A DNA stretch of 42,554 bases. Origin: an uncultured Brachyspira sp. GTDB lineage: Bacteria; Spirochaetota; Brachyspiria; Brachyspirales; Brachyspiraceae. Positions 23,712-25,640 of the stretch are shown piece by piece (within the stretch, counting starts at the first letter, position 1; every line of letters begins with the position of its first letter). The notes below the pieces were generated by a model, which worked only from the letters and a program-made list of their open reading frames with translations, ran no database searches and was not told where the DNA came from. Position numbers and translations under genes: made by a program. The DNA lies in contig NZ_CALXRM010000025.1 in assembly GCF_944390845.1 (NCBI RefSeq), positions 1-42,554 on the forward strand. Direction: 5' to 3'.

Positions 23712-23742
23712 TTGACTGTTATTTTTTTCATTGTATTATAAT
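23712..23742 (+). promoter_or_regulatory. Promoter of rnc
   Basis: TTGACT (23712-23717) followed by TATTAT (23734-23739, 16-base spacer) overlapping TATAAT (23737-23742, 19-base spacer). The predicted transcript start near 23749 lies before ATG 23767 and excludes the longer frame beginning at 23731. Confidence 0.6.
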
Positions 23743-23766
23743 TCTATCTTTTTAGGTAGTTATTGT

Positions 23767-24489
23767 ATGAATATAGAAGAAATCTTAACTAATTGTCAAG
23801 AAACTATAAAGTATGAGTTTAGAAATAAATCTCATCTTTTGGAAGCTATTACTCATAGAACTTATGCTAATGAGTCAAAAAAGAAAATGAAATATAATCA
23901 GAGATTGGAATTTCTTGGGGACTCTGTACTTTCTCTTATTATGTCAGATTATTTGTTTAGAAAATATAATACAAGTAAAGAAGGCTTATTATCAAAAGTA
24001 AAATCATCTTTGGTATCTCAAAAGAGTTTAGCAGATATTTCAAAGGAACTTAAACTTGGTAATTTCCTACTTTTAGGACATGGAGAGGAGGCTTCAGGCG
24101 GACGTTATAGAGATAATATGCTTGAAGATTTGTTTGAGGCTATAGTTGGAGCTATATATTTAGATTCTGGTATAACTAATGCTACTAGATTTGTTATGAT
24201 GGCTTATAAAAATAGACTTAATAATTTAGATATTGATAATTTTGATAAAGATTATAAAACTATATTCCAAGAATTGATACAGAAAAAACATAAAACAAGC
24301 CCGATATATAAGTCTTATGAATTTCATGATGAAAATAATCATGAGATGTTTAAAGCTGAACTATATGTTAATGATAAAAACTTTGCTACAGGTATAGGTA
24401 AAAGCAAGAAAGAGGCAGAAACAGAAGCAGCTAAAAAAGCATTGGATAGAATAGAGAAGGCTAGTATAACAATAAAGAAAAATAAATAA
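23767..24489 (+). CDS. rnc: Ribonuclease III
   Basis: Double-strand-specific endonuclease that processes rRNA precursors and structured mRNAs. The 240-residue protein has the nuclease signature RLEFLGDSV (46-54) and the four acidic metal residues Glu48, Asp52, Asp121 and Glu124, with the same spacings as E. coli Glu41, Asp45, Asp114 and Glu117. A double-stranded RNA-binding domain follows (about 160-235: FQELIQKKH, then GIGKSKKEAETEAAKKAL). The start at 23767 is favoured by AGG at 23754 and the promoter just upstream. It has its own terminator and is followed by the tandem repeat array. Confidence 0.95.
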   Translation: MNIEEILTNCQETIKYEFRNKSHLLEAITHRTYANESKKKMKYNQRLEFLGDSVLSLIMSDYLFRKYNTSKEGLLSKVKSSLVSQKSLADISKELKLGNFLLLGHGEEASGGRYRDNMLEDLFEAIVGAIYLDSGITNATRFVMMAYKNRLNNLDIDNFDKDYKTIFQELIQKKHKTSPIYKSYEFHDENNHEMFKAELYVNDKNFATGIGKSKKEAETEAAKKALDRIEKASITIKKNK

Positions 24490-24503: not shown

Positions 24504-24535
24504 AAATACTAAAAAAGATCAATTTTAGTATTTTT
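24504..24535 (+). terminator. Terminator of rnc
   Basis: Perfect 11-bp stem AAATACTAAAA/TTTTAGTATTT (24504-24514 with 24523-24533) with an 8-base loop and a short T-run. Its 3' half grades into the degenerate first unit of the tandem array. Confidence 0.7.
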
Positions 24536-24581
24536 GTTAATTGAAAATAGTAATTAATAAATAAGTTGAACATAGTGATAA

Positions 24582-24984
24582 ATGTGTCAACTTTAGTTTG
24601 CATCTATTAATAGCGAATGCGAACATAGCAATAAACAAATAAGCCTAAATAGTTGACAATTTTGGTTTTTAGTTTATTAATTGGAATGCGAACATAGTAA
24701 TAAACCAAGTGAGCCGAAGCAGATGACAACTTTAGTTTGCATCTATTAATAGCGAAGGCGAACATAGCAATAAACGAATAAGCCTAAATAGTTGACAATT
24801 TTGGTTTTTAGTTTATTAATTGGAATGCGAACATAGTAATAAACCAAGTGAGCCGAAGCAGATGACAACTTTAGTTTGCATCTATTAATAGCGAAGGCGA
24901 ACATAGTAATAAACCAAGTGAGCCGAAGCAGATGACAACTTTAGTTGGCATCTATTAATAGCGAAGGCGAACATAGTAATAAAG
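24582..24984. repeat. 69/70-bp tandem repeat array upstream of rpe
   Basis: The gap 24490-24992 is mostly a tandem array. Clear units: 24582-24650, 24651-24720, 24721-24789, 24790-24859, 24860-24929 and a partial 24930-24984; a degenerate unit precedes them from about 24521. Two unit types occur. Type A starts AGATGACAACTTTAGTTTGC, type B starts AGTTGACAATTTTGGTTTTT. The order is A-B-A-B-A-A. The two B units are identical over 70 bases, and A-B is itself repeated with a 139-base period. Every unit shares GCGAACATAG(T/C)AATAAA. Type B has a stem GTTTATTA/TAATAAAC (24672-24679 with 24698-24705). The last unit runs straight into the rpe Shine-Dalgarno. Confidence 0.95.
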
Positions 24985-24992
24985 GAAATGTC

Positions 24993-25640
24993 ATGGATAA
25001 TATTATAATAGCACCATCAATACTTACAGCATCATTTACAAATTTGGAAGGAACTATCAGAGAGCTTGAAGAAGCAGGAAGCGATTATCTTCATTTGGAT
25101 ATTATGGACGGAGTATTTGTTCCTCAGATTACATTCGGAGCAAAAGTTGTTTCAGATATAAAAAAAGTAAGTAAAATACCTCTTGATGCACATCTTATGA
25201 TAGTTAATCCAGAAAAACATATAGATGATTTTGCTAAGGCAGGCTGTGATATTATAAGCGTTCATTTTGAGGGTAATATACATATTCATAGATTAATTTA
25301 TCAAATAAAAGCACATAATATAAAAGCTGGTATTGTACTTAATCCTCATACTAGAGTTGATGTTATAGAGCCTATTATTGATGATATTGATTATTTGCTT
25401 ATAATGAGTGTAAATCCTGGATTCGGCGGACAGAAATTCATTGAGTCATCTATAAAAAAAATAGAAGAAGCTAAAAAATTAATAGGTGATAGAGATATAA
25501 TTCTTGCAGTTGACGGCGGAGTTAATTTAAGAACTTGCGGTAAAGTATTAGAAGCAGGTGCAAATTTCCTTGTAGCTGGAAGTGCAATTATTGACAGCGA
25601 TAATAAAAAAGATACTATTAATAAATTGAGAGGAAATTAA
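24993..25640 (+). CDS. rpe: Ribulose-phosphate 3-epimerase
   Basis: Interconverts ribulose 5-phosphate and xylulose 5-phosphate in the pentose phosphate pathway. The 215-residue TIM barrel has the metal ligands His34 and Asp36 (LHLDIMDG), His67 (DAHLMI) and Asp174 (AVDGGV), with catalytic Asp36 and Asp174 in place, plus the phosphate-binding VNPGFGGQKF. I start at 24993, preceded by AAAGGA at 24981-24986; the longer frame from 24945 would translate part of the tandem repeat into a non-homologous N-terminus. The last array unit ends eight bases before the start codon, so the array lies in its 5' leader or promoter region. Confidence 0.95.
   Translation: MDNIIIAPSILTASFTNLEGTIRELEEAGSDYLHLDIMDGVFVPQITFGAKVVSDIKKVSKIPLDAHLMIVNPEKHIDDFAKAGCDIISVHFEGNIHIHRLIYQIKAHNIKAGIVLNPHTRVDVIEPIIDDIDYLLIMSVNPGFGGQKFIESSIKKIEEAKKLIGDRDIILAVDGGVNLRTCGKVLEAGANFLVAGSAIIDSDNKKDTINKLRGN

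Follow-up and report, generated by a model that had tools for sequence, protein, structure and literature searches.

What the repeats in front of rpe are, and whether their number matters to that gene, are the questions raised by one locus of an uncultured Brachyspira species. In the 42,554-nt stretch of DNA analyzed here (the window), rnc is followed by a 460-nt gap and then by rpe, and the gap holds a tandem array that ends at the rpe ribosome-binding site. We find that the rpe array belongs to an apparently undescribed family of small hairpins that spread in Brachyspira and its prophages. Reasoning from sequence, and with slightly better than even confidence, we read the family as a mobile, structured RNA leader element that would act in cis, either on translation or on the decay of the mRNA.

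The array between rnc and rpe

The tandem array is real by both TRF (24588–24983, period 70/139, scores 487/648) and a repeat search. It consists of six tandem units (Table 1), three intact and three decayed, with unit borders and copy counts taken from a covariance model, R1. The sequence-only reading had described A and B units around a common core, and much of that description stands. The core GCGAACATAG(T/C)AATAAA occurs exactly six times (24619, 24688, 24758, 24827, 24897, and 24967), the two B units are one identical 64-nt sequence, and the last unit reaches the rpe Shine-Dalgarno (SD) sequence. A 139-bp A-B block is duplicated (24585–24723 and 24724–24862, 98% identity) and followed by an extra 70-bp step, and the array is, as had been supposed, recently duplicated in part. 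The proposed layout is right in its A/B alternation but not at its left end, where 24521–24560 belongs not to the array but to an AT-rich inverted repeat 3' of rnc and to its flank. Sequences similar to this inverted repeat occur in other array-bearing species; its terminator-like role is uncertain, and it is missing from the terminator-scan output. A CRISPR was ruled out, as whole units repeat without unique spacers, and a protein-coding repeat was ruled out because the 69/70-bp steps break the frame.

Table 1. Features of the rnc–rpe region, in window coordinates
Feature	Position	Strand	Evidence
rnc (ribonuclease III), upstream neighbor of the array	23731..24489	+	ORF; Pfam Ribonuclease_3 + dsrm
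AT-rich inverted repeat AAATACTAAAA-8 nt-TTTTAGTATTT, 3' of rnc	24504..24533	+	read directly
Decayed leading unit	24575..24633	+	39.3 bits, model R1
Type B unit 1, decayed, hairpin lost	24639..24702	+	36.5 bits; fold z +0.57
Type A unit 1, intact, structured	24709..24772	+	85.8 bits
Type B unit 2, same sequence as B unit 1	24778..24841	+	36.5 bits; sequence identity
Type A unit 2	24848..24911	+	84.7 bits; fold z -2.5
Type A unit 3, adjoining the SD	24918..24981	+	88.5 bits; fold -16.7 kcal/mol, z -3.5
Type A unit 3, outer helix	24918-24919/24971-24972	+	
Type A unit 3, tandem G·A	24920-24921/24969-24970	+	
Type A unit 3, helix	24922-24924/24966-24968	+	
Type A unit 3, GAA/GAA loop	24925-24927/24963-24965	+	
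Type A unit 3, 10-bp stem	24930-24939/24944-24953, loop TTTA 24940-24943	+	
Type A unit 3, bulge and tail	bulge 24954-24960; tail 24973-24981	+	
rpe SD AAGGAA, reached by the last unit's tail	24982..24987	+	read directly
rpe (ribulose-phosphate 3-epimerase), ATG at 24993	24993..25640	+	Pfam PF00834, E 8.7e-72

Type B had been credited with a stem and taken for a second functional type, but the predicted fold of the B unit does not surpass those of its shuffles (z +0.57, against -2.5 to -4.5 for single A-type units), and the unit is better described as a decayed copy. The TTGACA noted in it falls in its degenerate stem, and the promoter role suggested for the array finds no support either, with 1 promoter-like site found in the region versus 3.4 expected from shuffles. 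Half of the six rpe units have lost their fold, so that the length of the array is not necessarily a measure of functional dose. The last A unit is the genome's top match to R1, and the predicted fold of the full 481-nt rpe leader has partial pairing between units rather than unit-by-unit folding. The outer pairs of rpe-locus units are GU/AC in most species and GC/GC in G009. The rpe gene itself matches that of B. pilosicoli T010 at 80% and that of Brachyspira sp. G79 at 86%.

At the orthologous rnc–rpe gap, R1 finds seven units (plus one weak) in G009, six in the window, four in G012, at least three in G013 (split over two contigs), one in G005, one decayed unit in G004, and none in the remaining genomes that gave the rpe locus, a comparison based on one genome per species. 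Two genomes, with two contigs each, have seven and four units, so the array is not an artifact of a single draft assembly. Because unit number differs so greatly between species (0–7), the earlier idea of a variable-number locus is plausible. By our model of the leader, unit number at rpe would alter leader structure, and not promoter spacing.

A genus-wide family with a conserved fold

A DNA search with the array finds many further places in genomes of the same genus and none in other genera, and the 17-base core recurs in the genome outside the array. R1 counts 77 copies of the ~64-nt unit in the genome from which the window comes, a minimum given that no more than 150 candidates were scored. 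R1 matches occur in 22 of the 26 Brachyspira-genus genomes, with copies absent or rare in G001, G010, G014, G031, and G034, while about 270 other Spirochaetota, searched with stricter filters, gave no R1 match. As draft contigs end inside arrays (G013 C92/C103 and C166; G000 C101), short-read copy numbers may be underestimates. No Rfam family matched, either at the gathering score or at E up to 5, and blastn of plasmid and phage record collections found none, with records possibly left out or too distant. No published description of such Brachyspira repeats was found in the open-access papers searched. One IMG/VR match, L288, was set aside as a GC-rich chance match (68% GC).

Intact units have one fold, in which helices are parted by tandem G·A mismatches and a hypervariable 10-bp stem with a UUUA loop is followed, at the 3' end of the unit, by an A-rich tail. 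The consensus reads 5'-GU-GA-GCC-GAA-GC-(10-bp stem)-UUUA-(stem')-7/8-nt AU bulge-GC-GNA-GGC-GA-AC-AUARCAAUA. In other copies of the family the scaffold is conserved, and the stem differs by locus yet remains self-complementary. In an alignment of 21 units made on sequence only (A1), 89.9% of cells are paired, and covariation is 0.410 versus 0.191 in shuffles (0/500 as high) and at most 0.134 when partners are slid; RNAalifold, unaided, returned essentially the same fold from a sequence-only alignment. A further 96 distinct units from four other genomes, in an alignment fitted to the structure, have 94.1% of cells paired, double changes in all 17 pairs, and covariation of 0.630 versus 0.192. 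The fold is kept by compensatory change across the family, and the covariation is very strong.

GA/GA flanks both sides of the outer helix in 18 of 21 A1 units; among wider matches, the counts are 21 of 32 and 37 of 56. The same G·A rule also appears with other helices, such as GC-GA-GUAU-GA-GCC...GGC-GA-AUAC-GA-GC at L277 and AAUAAAC-GA-GC...GC-GA-GUUUAUU at AKR and flavodoxin genes.

Several variants were seen beside the typical unit. A long-form subfamily (L194, L202, L203, L205, L235, L238, L256, L264), mostly remote from start codons, has a common ~40-nt AT-rich 5' arm, AATAATAATTTTTAAATATTAGAATTGAAATATAAAA. Another (L207, L215, L224, L235, L245, L252, L264, L319) keeps the GA/GA borders around a long outer helix, GCGATAAAC...GTTTATCGC, and ends in TAGCAATAATA. 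L267, L268, L213, and L007 carry an extra mini-hairpin, GGCACCC-TTAC-GGGTG(A/C)C or similar, between scaffold and tail. Three units with a ~260-bp period form a higher-order composite repeat 3' of eno (L200, 2513-3099).

Placement at ribosome-binding sites and the sense strand

Placement was analyzed in 121 arrays from five genomes, counting each ATG at -6 to +45 nt from the array 3' end that opens an ORF of 70 codons or more. Of the 121, 65 have a start codon of the same orientation next to their 3' end, versus 1 of 121 in the mirror control, where the single case, at the 5' end, is the divergent start of an antisense ORF over rnc. At random points, such a start codon is present in 10.7% of cases, a figure raised by internal ATGs, and about half of the arrays lie away from start codons. 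The usual junction is CATARCAAYAATAGGAG-N(5-8)-ATG, and an SD follows the element in 49 arrays. Counted as RCAAYAATAGGAG, in place of RCAAYAATARGGAG (one base off), the tail-SD motif has 17 genome sites versus 1 reversed, and most of these have a hairpin directly upstream, including types missed by R1. No common function was seen among the genes downstream of arrays. Given its fixed orientation at the ribosome-binding sites of many genes, the element probably affects mRNA translation. Judged by position, a copy whose tail ends 0–14 nt 5' of the AUG almost certainly lies in the mRNA, unless transcription starts inside the tail.

A second arrangement splits the ribosome-binding site. Ten arrays, which include orthologous or duplicate copies of one gene, have the SD 5' of the element and the ATG 0–3 nt after the tail. 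A strong SD lies just 5' of the element in 9 of 16 arrays without an SD after it versus 2 of 105 elsewhere (Fisher p 5e-8), and one IMG/VR prophage contig has three split cases, all upstream of genes in the tail region, which include baseplate J. In most of the ten arrays and three phage cases, the predicted fold leaves both SD and AUG accessible; not all do so, and poorly folding predictions include L192 (SD 1% open) and one L289 case (AUG 16% open). Structure between SD and AUG is known from phage T4, where it shortens the distance from 27 to 11 nt in gene 25 and from 22 to 5 nt in gene 38 (PMC3014915). The likeness is one of form; about 70 nt in Brachyspira would become about 11 in our model. 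In contrast to the single, non-mobile T4 cases, the Brachyspira element is a dispersed repeat family in the spacers of several unrelated genes.

The non-Watson-Crick pairs within the helices bear on which strand is used, as G·U should be tolerated and A·C should not if it is the sense RNA that counts. In a set picked by scaffold with no structure model, with the hairpin axis placed by Watson-Crick pairs only, G·U outnumbers A·C by 22 to 4 (p 5e-4, inflated, as are all wobble p values here, by kinship among the sequences). In model-aligned sets with one unit per locus the counts are 66 to 15. When arrays are split by position, the bias is stronger in SD-adjacent arrays (61:15) than in other arrays (44:19). 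This large excess of G·U points to sense-strand RNA.

The tandem arrangement and the variation of unit number between species would fit the earlier proposal of a function at the DNA level, as a protein-binding array or a promoter-spacing variable-number repeat upstream of rpe. However, the stem sequence is hypervariable while its pairing is kept, the asymmetry of G·U over A·C is unexpected for a duplex or cruciform, promoter-like sites are not in excess, and the fixed distance is to the SD or AUG rather than to a promoter. We therefore regard a DNA-level function as very improbable.

As an RNA leader element, the family would occupy mRNA leaders and intercistronic gaps, either with the A-rich tail against the SD or with the hairpin between SD and AUG, and would act in cis on translation initiation of the downstream cistron. 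The folded hairpin may insulate the ribosome-binding site from upstream RNA and leave A-rich, single-stranded RNA next to it as a standby stretch; in the split form, the hairpin would close the gap and bring a remote SD to about 11 nt from the AUG. The hairpin may also block or invite ribonucleases, and the units would multiply in tandem, with interior stems exchanged between copies. A rival reading is that the elements are mainly ribonuclease landmarks, whether as RNase III sites or through 5' protection, and that they determine mRNA half-life or keep cistrons apart while initiation is not directly affected. Long, stable stems in intercistronic positions would suit such a role, RNase III is encoded by the upstream rnc, and for repeats such as ERIC and Correia elements a triggering of mRNA cleavage has been reported (PMC3049150). 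Yet rnc adjoins only one of dozens of loci, and the contact of the tail with SD or AUG, like the split SD-hairpin-AUG cases, is left unexplained, which makes this reading unlikely in our judgment.

Mobility and relation to known repeats

Occupancy of orthologous sites shows turnover of the family, noting that arrays in different species are not independent events. Between gap and pgk, 3' of a conserved stem-loop, some species have the element and others lack it. This stem-loop, which has a T-run (AAAGGGTG...CACCCTTTAAATTTTT, e.g., L303, L308), is kept across most of the genus, whether the element is there or not. For the prophage gene MKSFANII, the site is empty in ten IMG/VR prophages and holds a remnant in one; G032 has one element, and the window's genome has two, the first of them flanked on either side by a copy of a 25-bp stretch. 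In one prophage (L340, ~980-1000), only AGTAGGAGCATAGCAATAATA precedes the ATG at a site that holds a full element in relatives; this may be what was left when the hairpin was lost, with SD and tail kept. Immediate flanking direct repeats of 19–70 bp occur at 10 of 105 arrays at score >= 16 versus 1.2 expected from mispaired flanks. The 70-bp, nearly exact direct repeat flanking the element at L254 is too long for an ordinary transposon target duplication. Together, empty sites and flanking duplications indicate mobility. At the LrgB-like, serA, and pgk orthologous sites, the junction is kept and the hairpin is different, and one stem recurs at unrelated loci, so that interiors are swapped or replaced.

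Much of this would also be expected of a purely parasitic, MITE-like repeat, as pneumococcal BOX and RUP have been argued to be, whose placement is set by target preference (an A-rich motif, e.g., RCAAYAATA before SDs) and whose hairpin would promote its own mobility and be of no use to the host. Patchy occupancy between species, empty sites with long flanking duplications, decayed copies, copies in prophages, and downstream genes without a functional theme all fit, and the same case has been argued for BOX (PMC3049150). However, an extra reason would be needed for the constant sense orientation relative to SDs (65:1) and for the G·U bias of the sense strand, the SD junction is kept at orthologous sites while interiors change, and BOX, RUP, and SPRITE show the opposite pattern, being enriched between convergent genes (PMC3049150). 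We consider the purely parasitic reading possible, though on the doubtful side.

BOX of Streptococcus pneumoniae, together with RUP and SPRITE, is also a useful comparison in other respects (PMC3049150): these are small, dispersed, modular repeats with a variable number of tandem inner modules and predicted stem-loops if transcribed, found in few related species and partly common to genomes. The differences are that boxA, boxB, and boxC were not recognized in the Brachyspira family (by Rfam scan only, none at E up to 5), that the Brachyspira family lies at ribosome-binding sites in sense orientation (65/121), and that its stems are replaced wholesale while pairing and G·A mismatches are retained. 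ERIC/RU-1, RU-2, Correia/NEMIS, and other bacterial MITEs, as far as the abstract and outline of a review describe them (PMC2229807), are likewise small, non-autonomous mobile sequences with transcribed structure near genes; they differ in length, sequence, and taxon, and tandem arrays, a hypervariable stem, and an SD junction are not listed in that abstract and outline. The generic MITE trait, a target-site duplication or clean empty site, is present in the Brachyspira family. The ends of the element pair through the outer helix, and no partner transposon was identified.

Short, imperfect, dispersed intergenic palindromes, sometimes clustered, also recall REP/BIME repeats, which are moved by a RAYT (Y1 transposase). 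In Brachyspira, though, PF01797 was found by Pfam in 0 of 26 genus genomes, with 5 of the control genomes positive, and this origin, refuted within the sensitivity of Pfam, has next to no probability left.

Bacterial repeats of the small, dispersed sort are mostly regarded as inert or as terminator-like parasites. Here, one Brachyspira family is tied in one orientation to the ribosome-binding sites of metabolic and phage genes, with its fold kept and its sequence replaced, and what is new is this set of unusual features within a known kind of small dispersed structured repeats such as BOX. A more speculative extension of the leader-element reading, which we consider unlikely, is that the copies could be portable translation-initiation modules, in which a hairpin installs itself in or beside a ribosome-binding site, keeps or creates translation by folding (SD-hairpin-AUG), and spreads by an RNA-based, strand-specific route that leaves long target duplications of variable length. 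Brachyspira now has a described repeat family, where the open-access papers searched yielded none. If the leader-element reading is confirmed, the family would be a case of translation initiation rewired by a mobile element, and the 0–7 hairpins before rpe would offer a natural leader series for the tuning of expression by hairpin number.
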